Shown: piece after piece, positions 1 through 35,954 of the stretch | Position numbering within the stretch: position 1 is the stretch's first letter | How the letters are laid out: each line of letters starts with the position of its first letter | DNA from: Candidatus Methylacidithermus pantelleriae | Lineage (GTDB): Bacteria; Verrucomicrobiota; Verrucomicrobiia; Methylacidiphilales; Methylacidiphilaceae | NCBI RefSeq assembly: GCF_905250085.1 | Contig: NZ_CAJNOB010000014.1 | Span: forward strand, 1-35,954 | DNA length: 35,954 nt | Direction: 5' to 3' | Translations under genes and position numbers: made by a program | The notes under the pieces: model-generated | Database searches by the model: none | Seen by the model: only the letters and a program-made list of their open reading frames with translations | Told to the model about the DNA's origin: nothing

Positions 1-75
1 GTTCAAGCCCCGAACCGGAGGGCATGGAACTCTCGGGCGGTCAAGCCAAACCGCGGCAAGAAGGATCGCTTACGT
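1..75 (+). pseudogene. 5' fragment of IS200/IS605-type tnpB
   Basis: Bases 21-72 match, with only about four differences, the reverse complement of 35884-35935, which lies just ahead of the N-terminal region of the tnpB remnant at the right edge. The reading VKPNRGKKDR seen here corresponds to the start of that TnpB family. Similarity stops near base 75, so only the first few dozen codons remain and the rest is lost or unrecognisable. A partner tnpA, if present, would lie left of the window. No function is expected. The alternative, an unrelated shared repeat, is less likely because the same block precedes recognisable TnpB sequence in the other copy. Confidence 0.55.
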
Positions 76-1379
76 TTCTTTGGTGAAACGCGAGCCCGCA
101 TTTGGCAAAAAAACTCTCCTCAACCCCCCTGTACAGCGCCCCATCGCCGTCCGGACGCAAAACCTCTTCCGGTCTCGGCGTCAAACGTGCCTCAAATGGG
201 CACATGGGAAGCTCAGTCATGAATGGCTACAAGCGCCTTTTTGGAGCGGTTCTGTGCGGGTTTCTTCTCGGTAAAAGCCTGGCACACAATGAAACAATCT
301 CCTCAAAGGAGATCGCGCGACGATATCCTCGCTCACCTCATTGGGATGCACCACCAGGATCGATCGACTTTAGCCGGCCAATGCCGCTTTCCGGTACTCG
401 AAGCCCATCAGCCGGCGCAAGTACTCGGACCAGGATGAAGCCGGCCTTTGGATCACAGACCTGCCCAACAAGCCCTCTGCGATGGCCATGCATCGCAGAG
501 CCCAATCTCCCTGATGGCCGGGACGATCCGTAACGCTTTGCTTGAGAGCCAATGGGGAGAGCCCAAGCCGATTGCCTTTCCCAATTCACTGGTTCGCCGC
601 CGCTTGCACATCCGCGCCTAGAGGGCCACCCCATCGAGTTGTGAAGACTTTGCACCAACACCCACCGTTCCAGTTAGTAACGATTCTGCGGGAATAGGCA
701 CAGACCTCTCCCTCCACATCCGCTAACCCGTCTTGTGGCAAATACCCTGCCGCTTGGCCCACCTACGTAACTTCGTTCCGATGTACTTACTAAAGATAAA
801 GAACCTTATGTGTCCCTAGATTGTTTAGCTATGGGCAACTCTTTGGGACTTGCTAGCTCGCCTTATCCGCGTGGGCCAGCGAAAAGGAAAGGGGCAAGAC
901 TAAGCGAGCGATACCAGAGCTAGCTAACCTTTTCAACGTGGAGCATCCCGTCGCTGCGCGCCCCAGCGTTGTGGTCGCTCTAACCTGTCACCGAAAAGTA
1001 GAAGGTGCTTTTTGGAGCGTTCCAGGGCGACCGCCCCCCGCGCCTAAAGGATTCTGACATCCACCCAAACAAACGAAGTCGATACAAGCGCTTCTCTCTT
1101 TGATTCCGTTTGGATTCTTTGCTCTTCGGCTTGCCTAACCTGCAAGGTCGCCATGAGCTAGGTAACCCTACCAAGTCAGGTTTGCTTTTTTCTGTCCCGT
1201 CTAGGATAGGCATACCTGCATGGTGAGCTCGCGTGCCCTATGGAAGGATCCCAGGAGGTAAGCGGCGGGCGTATTCCTTGAGCGCTAAACCGCTCCAAGC
1301 CGGTCTAGAAGCCATAGGTCGTAGCAGGAGAACAATAGCCGGTTGTTCGTTTTTCGCCGCCAAAGATCCCAAGAACTGA
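76..1379. other. gene-poor stretch, nothing recognisable
   Basis: Both strands carry only short reading frames that overlap one another in several phases. The minus strand around 300-660 has a vaguely protein-like composition (for example WALRCMAIAEGLLG near 450) broken by stops and shifts, which could be an old pseudogene, but I cannot assign it. No RNA gene, clear terminator or repeat was seen apart from the tnpB scrap on the left. Confidence 0.5.
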
Positions 1380-10109: not shown

Positions 10110-10358
10110 TCAATCTTTCACGGGCCCATCTCTTCTCCTTAGCCCGTTCTCAGCGGCTTTTCACCCGTGCTCGTCGAGGTCCATGACCGGTTCACCAGTC
10201 ACTACCCTCAACCGGCCGCCGCTAGGAGACCGGTCAACGGAAAAACTTTCCGCCAGTCGTATTGAAAAACGGGGAAGCTCAACAACGCTCGAATCTCCGT
10301 CGATTCATCGGCCGCATACACGGCCCGCCTCGCAAGTCTCGTCTTTCCCTTCTGTGAA

Positions 10359-10385
10359 GAACCCGGGGCTAAAGTCGCAGGCTTT
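10359..10385 (-). ncRNA. tnpB terminal hairpin, candidate omega-RNA 3' end and IS right end (copy 1)
   Basis: Read on the minus strand this is AAAGCCTGCGACTTTAGCCC followed by CGGGTTC. It folds into a hairpin of up to about 11 pairs with a few mismatches and aligns with hairpins at 34961-34986 and 28884-28911. It sits just beyond the end of the tnpB remnant, where IS200/IS605 elements carry the right-end hairpin and the 3' end of the TnpB guide RNA. The next bases, TTCAC, resemble the usual right cleavage motif; the guide would start after them. Identity of position and fold is seen; the RNA function is inferred. Confidence 0.55.
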
Positions 10386-11415
10386 ATAATAGCGTGCAGA
10401 GATGGCTGTCCCCCCTGCTCCTACCATAAGGCGTGTCCCGCGCTGTCGGTAACGAAAGCGGCGTCTCGCCAATGCTAGCAAAATTCCGACGTGCGTTCGC
10501 GCCACTCTTCGCCCGGAGACCATAGTGGGGACGCACCGAAACGATGTCCGGAGCGTTTCCCTCGAACTCCACAACACAAATAGCTCCGGCTGGTGGAGGC
10601 TGGATCGACGTGGTCGACGCAGGACGGCAGCTGCCACCATGCTCACCGGTGCCGACGGGGCACACCTGCTTGCGGGCCTTCCTCTGGTTGCGGACGTGCG
10701 TGATGTCTTCCATTCCGATCCTATGGCCTCCGCCTCGATAGCAGCCTGGACGATGACTCTACTCGTTTCGGGATGGATGTGCCGAACGCGGCCGCATTTT
10801 TTTTGGGAGTCCTACGGGAGCTTTTGTCTAGCGCTTTGGCTGCCGTTGGACGGAAGACAACGACACAGGGCAAGGGAGCGATCGCGCTTGCCGCACAACT
10901 TTCCCGCTGCCAAAGACTTTGCCTCTGCTTATCGCGGCGACGTTCTTTTGCCCGACATCTACACCCAGCATGGGGCCGGAGGCCACAGCTTGCCAATCTT
11001 TCGTTTCGACGACGAGGTTTAGATACCACGTCCTGTAGCAAAAGACCCCTTCATGGCGTATGTGCGCTTGTCGAAGCGCACACTGACATCGGCGGAGCGG
11101 ATAGCCGGAACGGGCGCCTCGTTCCTGATGCATCCCCATGTTTTTTCCCCTGTAGGTGCCGCACACCGTAAGAAACAGCATGCAGCACATCTGGGCGCCC
11201 AAAGGCGTTGCCCAGTGCAGCAGGGTGTACGCGCGCTGCTCGTGCAGGGCTACCCTCTTCCAGACGCAATGCTTGCGCATGACCGGATTGACCCGGTTGC
11301 AAGCGTCGCCGTAGGCCGAAGAGAGTGGGGTAAGCGATCTTACTTCTTCCGCCATAACGTCCCGTTGGATCGACACCGTGCCCATCATAACTCATCGCCT
11401 TCGTCGGGTAACATG
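10386..11415 (-). pseudogene. tnpB remnant of IS200/IS605 family (copy 1)
   Basis: RNA-guided nuclease accessory gene, now dead. In pieces and different frames on the minus strand one reads the N-terminal segment CNRVNPVMRKHCVWKRVALH, the RuvC-I segment GVDVGQKNVAAIS near 10960, the RuvC-II-like MEDITHVRNQRKARKQ near 10690, and a terminal PHYGLRAKSGANARRN near 10500 where DxNAA should stand, so the third catalytic Asp is gone. Compared with copy 3, about 110 bases are missing between the Lys-Arg-Thr-Tyr block and the TWYLNLVVET block, with GGGT at both ends, suggesting a microhomology deletion. Several frameshifts separate the pieces. It lies directly downstream of a tnpA remnant in the same orientation. 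Confidence 0.8.
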
Positions 11416-11439
11416 GTAAGAACTCTCGAGCGACCGGCA

Positions 11440-11840
11440 GATACTCTCGGCGCTCCCATTGCCCGCCGTCCCGACGGACTACGAGGGCGACCGAAAGCTC
11501 GTCGCCCCACAGCTGCTTCTTCCGCTCAAAAAAACGGTGGAACCGCCGCCTGGCCGTGACGCCCTTGAGCAGCTTGACGGCATCGGCCACGGCGATGACA
11601 GGCCGAATGGCGACAAAAAGATTCATCCGGCTGGATCTCCTGGGAGATCACAGGCAGGCCACGTTCGGCGCAGATCGCATCTACCATCGTTCCGCTTCCC
11701 CCAGCCACCGCTCCGGTCAACACGTCGGACCAATCCTCCGGACACTGGATCCTTTGGTCGGCCATTGGATCGACGCCATTGCGCTTGGTAATTATATCTC
11801 AACCATCCAGCAGATTGCGCACCCCATAGTGCGCTCCGCC
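11440..11840 (-). pseudogene. tnpA remnant, Y1 (HUH) transposase of IS200/IS605 family (copy 1)
   Basis: Single-stranded DNA transposase remnant. Minus-strand pieces read VDAICAERGLPVISQEIQPD (about 11633-11692), then in another frame LFVAIRPVIAVADAVKLLKG and VTARRRFHRFFERKKQLWGD (about 11500-11620), the typical HUH-to-helix region of TnpA. The HxH metal motif that should join the two pieces (QPDHVHLF) is destroyed: the sequence passes from QPD to a shifted frame with no His pair. The catalytic Tyr region after QLWGD is not readable. The N-terminal part near 11700-11830 is only faintly visible. It heads in the same direction as the tnpB remnant, giving the standard tnpA-tnpB order. Confidence 0.72.
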
Positions 11841-12061
11841 ATTGCTCCCGCGATTTCAATCGCGAGGTTCTTGCTGAAGGTCTATGAATTAAGTGGTCCC
11901 CAAGTAGTTGGGGGTGGGATCGGCAGCGGGATCGCGGGTATGAGGTGCTTGCTTCAGAGGTGATGCTCGATCGCATCCCCATTTACTTCTCCCCGCGGCC
12001 AACGGTTAGCCCGGCCATCGTCGCGTAAGACTCTCTCAAGGGCACGACTGCAAGAGGGTTC

Positions 12062-13453
12062 TTTACAAGGTTTCCGCATCTAAACGAGATTAAACTCGTG
12101 GATTTCACATTCACCGATTTACCCGGCACGTGGCAACATTTCACGACCACGCTCAGCGATGACAACGAGGATATCTTTACCGAAGGCCTGGGCTTCGACC
12201 GCTCGAACATTCGCGGCTGGAAAGCATCAATGCCTCGGACATGTTCGTCATTCCAGATCCCGCCACCGCGTGGATCGACATCTTCAATGCGGAGAAAACT
12301 CTCTCTCATCTGCACCATCGTGGATCCGATCGCCCGCGAGCCTTACGATAGCGATCTCCGCGGCGTGGCAGAAAAAAGCCGAAGCATATCTGAAAAGCAC
12401 AGGCATCGCCGACACCGCGTACTTCGGGCCCGAGGCGGAGTTCTTCATCTTCGACGAGGTGTGATTCAGTTACAATGGTAATGCGTCGTTCCACCACATC
12501 GATAGCGTCGAAGGACATGAGAACAGCGCGCGTGAAGAGTTCCCTAACCTGAGCTACGAAATCCGCCCAAAGGAAGGTTACTTTCCAGCGCCTCCGATGG
12601 ATACGCTACAAGATATCCGCAACGAAATGGCCCTGGAATTGGAAAAGGCCGGCATTGCGGTGGACAAACAACATCACGAAGTCGCCACGGCAGGCCAAGT
12701 CGAGATCGATATCTGGTTCGCTCCGCTAAAACAAATGGCCGACTCGATGCAGTATTATAAATACATCGTTCGCAATGTGGCGCGACGACATAACAAAACC
12801 GTCACGTTCATGCCCAAACCCCTCTTTGCCGATAACGGTTCCGGCATGCATACCCACATTTCGCTCTGGAAAGATGGCAAACCGCTTTTCGCCGGAAACG
12901 GGTACGCGGGGCTGAGCGAAACAGCGCTTTTCTTTATCGACGGAATCTTAAAGCACGCACCACGCCCACTTGTTTTACAAACCCAACCACCCACAGTTTC
13001 AAGCGTCTGGTGCCGGGGTTCGAAGCCCCTGTGAATCTGGCATACTCGGCGCGCAATCGCTCCGCCGCCATTCGGATTCCCACGCATTCTGCCAGCCCGA
13101 AAGCTAAACGAATCGAATTTCGCACGCCGGACGCCTCGGCGAACCCGTACATCGCCTTTTCCATAATGCTTCTCGCCGGATTGGACAGCATTCAAAACCG
13201 CATCGATCCCGGCGATCCGCTAGACAAAAATCTGTGCGAACTGCTGCCTGAAGAACTGGCCCGAATCGCCAGCGTTCCGGATTCATTGCGCAGCGCCATC
13301 GAAGCCCTTCAGGCCGATCACGCGTTCCTGTTGCGCGGCGATGTGTTCAACGAAGACTTCATCGCCAACTGGATCGATATGAAACAAAAAGAATACGACG
13401 CGCTGCGTCTCCGTCCCCACCCCTACGAGTTTGCAATGTATTACGACGTCTGA
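12062..13453 (+). pseudogene. glnA: glutamine synthetase type I, broken
   Basis: ATP-dependent synthesis of glutamine from glutamate and ammonia in intact relatives. Almost the whole GS-I sequence is readable but scattered over frames: [15 protein letters not shown] near the start, [95 protein letters not shown], then [20 protein letters not shown] and the C-terminal [15 protein letters not shown]. Damage: loss of a G near 12219, a CT-repeat contraction near 12300-12307, an extra A in the run at 12372-12377, a TGA at 12462-12464 where CGA (Arg) is expected, and loss of a T near 12973-12976. The first 15 or so residues are also missing. No functional enzyme is expected from this copy. Confidence 0.9.
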
Positions 13454-21336: not shown

Positions 21337-21691
21337 GGGGGCGTACCGGCTTCTACTGATCGTTGGAAGCGCGGGCGGCATGTCGAGGATGGTTCGTTGG
21401 CCTCGTTAAAAATCGAACCAAACAAATAAACGCAGACTACGAAGGTCTCGCTCTCGCGGCTTAATTGACCGCCACGTTTTCGCTGTGACGCCTGCTGGCT
21501 GCGAAAACGAGGATAGGAGGCTGGCGAATCGGCGGAGCGACCGCGCCGGTTCGTGAATCGATTTCGTGGACGCCCGGGAGCCGGCAGTGCGCCGGAGCAT
21601 GGCGCGGTTCCTCAGAACCAATCGCCGGATAAACATGTAGAGGCTTGCGTGGAGAACGATGAGGACAGGGGTTCGATTCCCCTCGCCTCCA
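21337..21691 (+). ncRNA. ssrA: transfer-messenger RNA (tmRNA)
   Basis: Ribosome-rescue RNA of about 355 bases. The acceptor stem pairs GGGGGCG (21337-21343) with CGCCTCC (21684-21690); the T-arm is AGGGG-TTCGATT-CCCCT (about 21667-21683). Pseudoknot PK1 is intact: CGAGG (21384-21388) with CCTCG (21401-21405), and GGTTCG (21391-21396) with CGAACC (21414-21419). After ATAAAC, the resume codon GCA at 21432 opens a tag reading frame ADYEGLALAA that ends in TAA at 21462-21464; the LAA ending is the normal degradation signal. The 3' segment AACATGTAGA is also conserved. CCA is not encoded. One oddity: the D-arm region has TTCTAC where TTCGAC is usual. No frame-type damage can be judged, but the key helices are preserved. 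Confidence 0.92.
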
Positions 21692-21929
21692 AGCCTTCGC
21701 TTGCAAGCACTAAAAGCACACGGGGCCAGCCGGAACAGCACGCAGGCGGAACATTACTTTTACGGGATCACTCTGCCTCAAAGCCAATGGCTTGGCCAAC
21801 CAGCCACAGCTTTTTGAATGTTGTCTGAGGACCGAATCCGGACGTGAATCTCCTCGTCGCCATTACTGAAGCGTGTCCCTCGCTCGCGATGCAGCGAGAG
21901 CAAAGGTTGCGCGCCGGATAGCATTCCCC

Positions 21930-27789: not shown

Positions 27790-28883
27790 TCAGTACGGAC
27801 CAAGCGAACCGGCTCGCTGTGCTTCAAGCCGCCTAGGCCAGTGCGCGCCACGAGCTCGTTCCCATCGGACGCGAGCACCGTGTTTGGAAGCGCGTGGCCT
27901 CAAATCCATGCGCCTGCTCGAGGCTTTGCGAAATCCCGCTCTTCGGGCAGTCATTGTGTTAGAATCCCCTCTTTACCGTGTGCGAGGCGTACAAGGGGAA
28001 AAGCCGCTTGAGCGCATCCGGAAAGAGACACGGGTACCTACGCTCCCTTTTGTAAGCGTGCGGGCGTTCCCTTGGACAAGCGCGCTTACAAGGGAAAAGT
28101 CGTCTTGCTTCCGCTCGGGCCGAATGCTCCTCCTTCCGATCCATCTTGGGAAATACCACTGGCGCATCCCCCAATCCGGTCAACCGAAAAAGAGCAAACG
28201 GGTCTTTCGCAAGAGGAATTGGTATCCCCATCTTCTCGTCGAATGCGGCGGCACGAAGCATCTTGCCTTCGGCCCGCCCATGGGTGTGGATGCCAGAGAA
28301 CACAAGCTTGGCGCGACCTGCACGGGCAAGGTCTTCGGTGGCAAGCCTGTGGGTGACGAGCGCGCCCATTCCCTTGCCCTGTGCCGCCCTCTTCCTGCCA
28401 ACCGCAGCCCGAACGCAAAAGAGAACCTCCGGCAGGTCTCCGGCAAAAAAAGCGGCGTGTTCAGCCCGTCAACCACCAAACAAGCCCGGCCATCGTCACC
28501 GAAGCCGTCAAAGCCGCCCTTTCCACAATTGTCATGGGACAGCTGGGACACACACGTACCCGGATCCAGGCTAGAAAACGCGCGCCAGGCTTGATCCCTA
28601 GGCTTGGCACGAGCTTCCCGACCTTGATCCCGTACAAAACCAGGGTAGCAGACATCCCGATTCCATACCCCCATCTCGGCCTATACTAGCCGAATTTCTT
28701 CCTCGTGCGGCCGTCCGGGGAAACACAGTCAAGATCATTTCGTGTGCTAGCCCTGTGGTCCCCGCACGCACACCAACGGAAACGCAAGCCAGAATCTTGT
28801 TCGGATTGGCGGGACCTTGGCCTCGCCAAAGGTTCTTGCCCATCCCCCTGATGCCGGAGATGGGCATGAGCCTGCCCTACGAT
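27790..28883 (+). pseudogene. tnpB remnant of IS200/IS605 family (copy 2)
   Basis: Aligned with copies 1 and 3, readable pieces are VPIGREHRVWKRVA near 27870, YRVRGVQGEKPLERIRKE near 27975-28025, VPLDKRAYKGKVV near 28068, the RuvC-I segment GVDAREHKLGATCTGKVFGG near 28285, ENLRQVSGKKSG, then in another frame AIVTEAVKAALSTIVMGQLG near 28500, where the catalytic Glu of the second RuvC motif is replaced by Gly (GGA). A weak zinc-ribbon pattern (SSCGRP near 28705, then FVC-stop-PCG) and a degenerate DxNA region follow to about 28800. It is inactive through frameshifts and loss of catalytic residues, but ends in the same hairpin as the other copies. Confidence 0.75.
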
Positions 28884-28911
28884 AAAGCTCGCGACTCCCA
28901 GTCACAGGTTG
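28884..28911 (+). ncRNA. tnpB terminal hairpin, candidate omega-RNA 3' end and IS right end (copy 2)
   Basis: Bases AAAGCTCGCGACTCCCAGTC then ACAGGTTG form an imperfect hairpin with the same outline as those at 10359-10385 and 34961-34986, on the strand of the tnpB remnant and right after it. The next bases are CTTCC, a degraded form of the TTCAC/TTTAC seen in the other two copies. Transcription and function are inferred from position only. Confidence 0.45.
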
Positions 28912-29139
28912 CTTCCAGTTTAAGATCGCAAGCCAAACGCGGTTCTCCAAGTGCCCTCCATCCCTGAGCGAGGGCCATCTGCCTTTCTTGTGGACGCCAT
29001 CGCCGTAGATGCTCCCAGGTGGAACGGCCATACGGTCTTTTCGAATCGAAGCAGAGGACATCGCTGCACAAAAAGCCTTTCTTTTGCTCAAGACGAACAC
29101 ACGTGCGTTTCAAATCCAACTGTGCTAATTTCTATCGTA
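28912..29139. other. spacer ahead of the small Cys/His-rich gene
   Basis: No gene is recognisable between the IS right end and the leader hairpin. TGTGCTAAT near 29121-29129 could be an extended -10 element for the downstream gene, but no convincing -35 box is seen. Confidence 0.35.
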
Positions 29140-34553: not shown

Positions 34554-34960
34554 AGCCTATCACGCACTCCACCCAGCGTACAAGGAAGGATTTGCGAGTA
34601 TAGGTCCACATGGGTCTTGAGTCATGCGGCGTTGGGCAGGGCGCTCTTTCCCTATGGGTTTATCATTCGTGGTTAAATCGGTAGGGTTTTCCTTTACCCG
34701 GTTTGTTACCGCACTCTCGGAATGGCCCCCGCGAAAACCCTTGCTCTCAACTCAATCGTGTCGAAGTGTCAACGCGCGTTTGACCGAAGAAAAAAGGGGA
34801 CAAGCTCTCAGCTGCGGCCCTTTCCCTTTTGGCTTGCGGCTGGCTGGACGCTTCGTCCGCCCGAAGCAAACCGACCAACGGCTCGCCATCGAAGCCTTCG
34901 CTGATCCTGCTTAGGGAGAAGATTTGCGTGAGCGTCACCAACCTGCGATTCTGCCGTAAA
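34554..34960. other. gene-poor stretch between rhomboid gene and IS remnant
   Basis: Only short overlapping frames; the promoter of the rhomboid/SDH pair should lie at its left end but I cannot define boxes. On the minus strand, the bases next to the hairpin at 34961 (TTTAC and the 20 bases following) would be the cleavage motif and guide of the candidate omega-RNA. Confidence 0.4.
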
Positions 34961-34986
34961 CAACCCGTGACTGAAGTTGCAGGCTT
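34961..34986 (-). ncRNA. tnpB terminal hairpin, candidate omega-RNA 3' end and IS right end (copy 3)
   Basis: Read on the minus strand: AAGCCTGCAACTTCAGTCAC then GGGTTG. Of 11 paired positions nine pair (with two G-T). The shape and the following TTTAC match right ends of IS200/IS605 elements. It is the best preserved of the three hairpins and lies at the 3' end of tnpB remnant copy 3. Confidence 0.6.
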
Positions 34987-35954
34987 TCTTGTAGAGCGCA
35001 GAGATGGTCCACCGTTCCCCATGCTCGCAACATCAGGCGTATCTACGGCCGCTCTTGCCAAAGCCGGGACCTGGTCAATTCTGGCAATCTTTCGACTTGC
35101 ATCGACGTCGCTGGGTGGCCGGAGACCACAGCGAGGAGACTAGAAACCTTCCACCACGATCCTGTCGACCCCCGCGTCGATACTAGCCTGGACGATGGCT
35201 CTACTTGTTTCGGGGTTGATGTGCCAAACGCGCCGCATCTTTTTCCGAAAACCTGCTGGAGCTTTTGTCTAGCGCCCTGGGTGCCGTTGGACGGAAGACG
35301 ACGACCCTGGGCAAGGGACTAGTCGCGCTTGTCGCGCAACTTCTCCGCCGCCAACCATTTGCCTGTGCTTGTGGCGGCGAGCTTCTTTTCCCCCAACATC
35401 CACGCCTAGCACGGCGCCGGACGCCACAGCTTGGCTATCTATTTGTCTCAACGACAAGGTTCAGATACCACGTCCTTTCGCAAAAGACCCATTCCGTTTC
35501 CTTCAGCCAATTGGAAGCACGGACGCGCTTTGGCTACCCGGCCAGCCGCAGCGGGACGCTCATGCGTCCCTCGATCGTGTAGAGCCAAACGCTCTCACCC
35601 TTCGTAGTGTACGTGCGCTTGTCGAAGCGCATGCTGGCCTGGTCAGAGTGCAAGTCCGGAACCGGCGCTTCCTCCCTGATGTGTCTCCATGTCTTTTTTC
35701 TACCCTGTAGATCTTGCACACCGTGAAGATAGCATTGCTATACATCTGGGCGCCCAAGGGCGTTGCCTAGTGCAGCAGGGTGTAGGTGCCCCGCTGCAGG
35801 GCTACCCTCTTCCAGACGCAATGTTCGCGCACCACGGAAACGAGCCGGTTGGAAGCCTCGGCGTATGCCGAGCAGAGTGCAGCAAGCGATCCTTCTTGCC
35901 GCGGTTTCGCTTGACCCCCCGAGAGTTCCATGCCTTCTAGGTCCGAGCTCGGAG
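34987..35954 (-). pseudogene. tnpB remnant of IS200/IS605 family, runs off the right edge (copy 3)
   Basis: Minus-strand pieces in order: VKRNRGKKDR near 35910, YAEASNRLVSVVREHCVWKR near 35830, NAIFTVCKIYRVEK near 35725, IREEAPVPDL, RFDKRTYTTKGESVWLYTIE near 35610, AVLGVDVGGK (RuvC-I) near 35400 and HINPETSRAIVQAS followed by DRIVVEGF (RuvC-II Glu region) near 35200. Frameshifts and stops separate them, and the zinc-ribbon and last RuvC part before the hairpin is unreadable. It is the most complete N-terminal half of the family here and the key to recognising the other copies. A tnpA, if present, lies right of the window. Confidence 0.8.

Follow-up and report, generated by a model that had tools for sequence, protein, structure and literature searches.

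Hairpins shared beside dead tnpB genes are most probably worn right ends of extinct IS200/IS605 elements in Candidatus Methylacidithermus pantelleriae

We find that three similar hairpins, located at the ends of broken tnpB genes in a 35,954-nt stretch of the Candidatus Methylacidithermus pantelleriae genome (hereafter the window), are in all probability the worn right ends of extinct IS200/IS605 elements, which would have spread with TnpA acting in trans and now appear to drift without function. The host is a methane-eating bacterium of volcanic soil. Its genome is represented by a fragmented MAG (71 contigs, 2.46 Mb), of which the window is contig C14.

Decayed elements in the window

A sequence-only reading of the window had placed related hairpins at 10359-10385 (-), 34961-34986 (-) and 28884-28911 (+), and direct reading combined with a fuzzy search returned the same coordinates and strands. 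The bases that follow were also read correctly, being TTCAC at 10358-10354 (-), TTTAC at 34960-34956 (-) and CTTCC at 28912-28916 (+); across copies, TTTAC is the commonest of the five-base sequences found 3' of the right-end hairpin. The frame at the three sites can be written AAGCCYGCGACT-N(2-4)-AGTCRCRGGTT, and a pattern scan of the host's own genome bore it out as non-chance, with matches in the true reading only and 0 in the reversed control. Each hairpin does lie directly 3' of a tnpB remnant, as had been proposed, on the evidence of a PF07282 match at the 28884 site and of homology at the DNA level to tnpB copies elsewhere in the genome at the 10359 and 34961 sites. The features of the three elements, designated copies a, b and c, are as follows.

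10354..11883 (-): copy a, a full-length decayed IS200/IS605 element; homology of ~1,560 bp to C34, C35 and C6, with ends aligned across copies
10354-10358 and 11884-11888 (-): boundaries of copy a, the right one after TTCAC (10354-10358) and the left one beside TTCAT (11884-11888)
10359..10385 (-): right-end hairpin of copy a, with 2 mispairs and shuffle-level stability; covariance match E 2.2e-17 (a training-set member)
10386..11385, limits approximate (-): tnpB remnant of copy a with stops and frameshifts; homologous at the DNA level to dead tnpB copies elsewhere
11430..11800, limits approximate (-): tnpA (Y1 transposase) remnant of copy a; PF01797 match at 11498-11620
11844..11869 (-): left-end hairpin of copy a, CTCGCGATTGAAATCGCGGG, pairing still good
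11884..11888 (-): TTCAT target, or transposon-associated motif, beside the left end of copy a; similarity between copies starts at TTCAT
27800..28916, left limit approximate (+): copy c, a tnpB remnant and right end of the second subfamily; 32% divergence from the first subfamily's consensus
28679-28798 (+): PF07282 match in copy c, with an internal TAG
28884..28911 (+): right-end hairpin of copy c, with 2 mispairs, then CTTCC
34956..35883 (-): copy b, a further element of copy a's subfamily represented by its 3' part; across 653 bp it is 79% identical to copy a
34961..34986 (-): right-end hairpin of copy b, with 2 mispairs, then TTTAC

Read from its left end, copy a thus comprises TTCAT, the left-end hairpin, dead tnpA, dead tnpB, the right-end hairpin and TTCAC. 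Copy b is cut at about 35884, where the repeat family changes to a different dispersed repeat, and copy c may retain a tnpA tail around 27700.

With respect to family membership, remnants matching PF01797 (Y1 HUH transposase) were found at 10 places, and the read-through tnpA consensus matches this profile at E 2e-19. A read-through tnpB consensus, employed only as a search query and for fixing the frame, matches PF07282 (E 3.5e-11) and PF01385 (E 4.3e-7), as expected of a RuvC core and zinc-ribbon C terminus, as well as solved TnpB/Cas12f-type chains; because of these profile and structure matches, the tnpB identity is not in doubt. Subterminal hairpins are present at the left and right ends across copies, without terminal inverted repeats, with those at the window's right ends being decayed. 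Insertion 3' of a fixed pentanucleotide is likewise seen, in that TTCAT is kept while the sequence upstream of it differs, and similarity stops at the right-end boundary. As judged from the sequences, such boundaries and differing flanks are as expected for IS200/IS605 insertion (PMC8612924, PMC7290912). The proposal that dead IS200/IS605 elements have their right ends at these hairpins is supported, and was extended by identification of a left end, a TTCAT target, a tnpA remnant and many further copies.

Other features of the window were also recorded. A broken frame piece resembling glutamine synthetase lies at 12098-12481 (+) beside the left end of copy a, with a PF00120 match (E 2.1e-4) below the cut-off. 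A tmRNA gene occupies 21337-21692 (+) (Rfam RF00023, 147 bits), and an Rfam search of the window gave nothing besides it. Both contig ends fall inside the second decayed dispersed repeat family, the one that cuts copy b at about 35884. This repeat is about 2.3 kb long and occurs at roughly 25 places in the genome, including window positions 1-830 (-) and 35884-35954, C23:72215, C25:12344 and C56:113640; three compared copies are 69-76% identical, and none of five ORFs tested gave a Pfam match.

Copies across the genome and their shared lesions

A covariance model was trained on 13 right ends anchored on tnpA and tnpB matches. When the genome was searched with this model, a check of the kind that the sequence-only reading had suggested, 20 right ends were recovered at E <= 2.4e-9, so that further copies do exist; 7 of these 20 were new to the model (C23, C25, C27:1358, C45:39765, C71:4941, C45:59650 and C56). 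DNA comparison divides the copies into two subfamilies. The main subfamily includes copies a and b of the window, with most members about 9-12% from the consensus, and the second, consisting of copy c, C1, C71:26230 and C56, is about 27-34% from the main one. Most copies are long (about 1.5-1.7 kb), dead, and composed of old, diverged sequence. Similarity between copies has sharp limits, TTCAT marking the left one and TTTAC the right one, and the flanks differ.

A second suggested check, a search for an intact tnpB of this family, came up empty among the assembled contigs. Specifically, PF07282, PF01385 and PF01797 searches of the host's own genome returned fragments or stop-bearing matches only, with no intact tnpA or tnpB. 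Among 12 sampled relatives from the same bacterial family, none of them of the host's genus, PF07282 matches were found in all 12, and tnpB frames of over 400 aa in most.

The lesions themselves are largely held in common. In copy a, tnpA carries a deletion in the HUH region, the SPSYY motif reads S-stop-S, and Ser stands in place of the catalytic Tyr. The same tnpA codon (the G-Tyr/Phe position) is a stop, TAG or TAA, in 10 of 12 scorable copies; the first HUH histidine has become Asp and the catalytic Tyr has become Ser in most copies; and one tnpB stop is common to 9 copies. Two copies with different flanks, C27:1358 and C71:4941, have in common one internal tnpB deletion of ~720 nt, and they resemble each other precisely as far as the right end. 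Lesions of tnpA and an internal deletion common to differently flanked copies indicate that copies without a working transposase nevertheless moved, as PATEs and other non-autonomous IS605 derivatives do. Because stops, lost catalytic residues and an internal deletion recur in copies at differently flanked sites, we conclude that the family moved after its own transposase had died. Read most simply, these sequences come from elements whose transposase was dead, which spread by help in trans and then drifted.

An alternative is that each copy was active when it inserted and decayed later, with the shared stops being coincidental or reflecting hot spots. Each copy does carry private stops and frameshifts in addition to the shared lesions. 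Nonetheless, independent death is most improbable given the identity of the tnpA stop, the tnpB stop and the Tyr-to-Ser change across so many copies, together with the one internal deletion common to two of them. Divergence by codon position also speaks against it: pairwise comparisons of main-subfamily copies are near-flat (0.27/0.27/0.31 in tnpB segment 1), whereas live TnpBs of sister genera at comparable total divergence give about 0.2/0.18/0.44.

There is next to no chance that some of these genes are alive through in-frame TAG being read as an amino acid. TAG accounts for 34 of 47 stops at consensus-sense sites and is present at the shared tnpA and tnpB positions, but the observed mutation spectrum already predicts a TAG majority (55%), and the excess is marginal over sites that are non-independent. 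TAA and TGA are also present, frameshifts are many (most of the longer copies contain 9-18 indels), and divergence over codon positions is flat, and TAG as a sense codon was accordingly rejected. The spectrum of the dead copies relative to the consensus is in itself unusual. C<->G transversions reach about 0.74-0.82 for each base of that type, which approaches the frequency of transitions, whereas A<->T and G/C->T/A transversions stand at 0.23-0.28, all with shared lineages counted repeatedly.

Returning to spread in trans followed by drift, the ancestral elements would have carried tnpA and then a co-oriented tnpB between ends that each bore a subterminal hairpin, and would have spread by single-strand transposition beside TTCAT. 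TnpA was presumably provided in trans by an autonomous relative, since lost or missing from the assembly, and after this burst the copies, hairpins included, would have drifted without selection. Mobilisation in trans is deduced from shared lesions, and gene conversion between copies could have spread some of these; the copies are about 20-27% apart, which argues against much gene conversion. The earlier suggestion that the sites might be recognised by a TnpA from elsewhere in the genome is supported for the past, in view of the lesions common to differently flanked copies, and unsupported for the present. A helper element was not found in the assembly. An intact copy could lie outside the 71 contigs and be missed, as this is a fragmented MAG and such assemblies lose identical multi-copy elements.

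As a separate observation, C27:1358-1464 and C71:4941-5048 (L086 and L084) also have the same badly paired right-end hairpin despite their different flanks. Either mobilisation of an already mispaired end or parallel change of the two ends could account for this.

State of the right ends

The term hairpin is generous for the three window sites, because each 11-pair stem contains 2 mispairs and folding energies are at the level of shuffled sequences (z -0.03, -0.69 and -0.15). The genome's best copy is the C6 right end, which pairs perfectly (z about -4.4 to -5); C34, C45:109938 and C23 likewise fold well, and the remaining copies are intermediate. No covariation beyond shuffles was detected over the 11 pairs in 13 right-end sequences, and no compensatory change was seen in the window hairpins. 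Divergence over the hairpin and cleavage site is 0.21; of the tnpB segments, two neighbouring ones give 0.20-0.23 and the last one 0.27-0.31. The copies were found partly by means of the hairpin itself, which biases the hairpins toward appearing more conserved, not less, and for this reason the true loss is if anything larger. Given shuffle-level folding, no covariation and divergence like that of dead tnpB, selection on the hairpins was rejected.

These measurements bear directly on whether the orphan right ends are still live, as had been raised, either transcribed into guide-RNA (omega/reRNA) scaffolds that serve a TnpB from another locus or acting as TnpA substrates in trans. The TnpB guide RNA consists of the tnpB 3' end, the right end and about 16 nt of flank (PMC8612924); some right ends, such as that of C6, fold well; recognition in trans did occur, in that copies were mobilised after their own TnpA had died; and live TnpBs are kept in sister genera. 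We nevertheless regard live ends as very unlikely. The assembly is without an intact TnpB or TnpA, the mispaired window hairpins show neither stability above shuffles nor covariation, and divergence of the ends is close to that of the dead frame beside them. Continued use as guide-RNA scaffolds is therefore unsupported, given hairpins that are mispaired, at shuffle level, without compensatory change and as diverged as tnpB. A functional TnpB-omegaRNA (OMEGA) system is not indicated either, with intact TnpB at 0 in the assembly.

The flanks were also considered as guides. For each window copy, TTCAT joined to the initial 12 bases of its flank gave no other match above chance in the genome, and flank guides aimed elsewhere in the genome were rejected because TTCAT-adjacent matches are at chance level except at the elements' own flanks. 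The C60 guide has one 2-mismatch match, equal to the level of the reversed control. Of 12 sister genomes, 11 gave no match to the right-end model; the single match came from a different genus, and no long tnpB frame lies around it. A TnpB search of 388 phylum genomes, with few candidates scored per genome, found no TnpB of the subfamily at E <= 1e-10 apart from one remote match at 29% identity. With those few candidates per genome, and with the right-end match lacking a tnpB frame, a live close relative of the family was rejected.

There is similarly little prospect that a handful of the better-preserved right ends (e.g., C6:2100-2208) are still transcribed and processed to guide RNAs by a TnpB missing from the draft assembly. 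If this were true, orphan guides would still be at work in a genome for which no TnpB has been assembled. We favor loss of function, and the sites probably have none at present.

Relation to known systems and meaning of the fossils

In ISDra2 of Deinococcus radiodurans, tnpA and tnpB lie between palindromic ends, insertion occurs at TTGAT, and the 3' end of tnpB runs into the right end (PMC8612924). The family described here shares this organization of both genes between palindrome-bearing ends, with a pentanucleotide target (TTCAT in place of TTGAT) and continuation of the tnpB 3' end into the right end. It differs in that both genes are dead in every copy and the window's right ends have lost pairing.

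A closer parallel to the proposed history is the IS605 of Halanaerobium hydrogeniformans, for which 22 copies with broken tnpA and kept ends, mobilisation by TnpA in trans as inferred by its authors, and an internally deleted PATE-like copy have been described (PMC7290912). Many broken-tnpA copies, a case for mobilisation in trans and an internally deleted form are common to both genomes. However, one intact IS605 tnpA is present in H. hydrogeniformans and the ends are described as intact, whereas the present assembly contains no intact tnpA and many of the ends have decayed. Haloquadratum walsbyi provides a further example, with strain-specific IS605-type insertions even though the IS200-type transposases of one strain are all pseudogenes, and with PATEs that are core-deleted derivatives with ends kept (PMC3119063). 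Movement without a functional transposase of their own and the generation of core-deleted derivatives are shared with the elements studied here; the Haloquadratum PATEs are short, unlike the majority of the present copies. Movement of IS605 elements in trans is thus already documented, and the present case is older, with no surviving helper as far as assembled.

In terms of biological meaning, a hairpin shared beside dead tnpB genes in this genome is an insertion-sequence fossil and not evidence for a surviving RNA-guided system. What the genome retains is an old and well-preserved trace of a transposon family whose spread came after its transposase broke and which then became extinct, while sister genera retain live TnpBs. 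This fossil record could serve for timing such extinctions and for measuring neutral mutation in the lineage.
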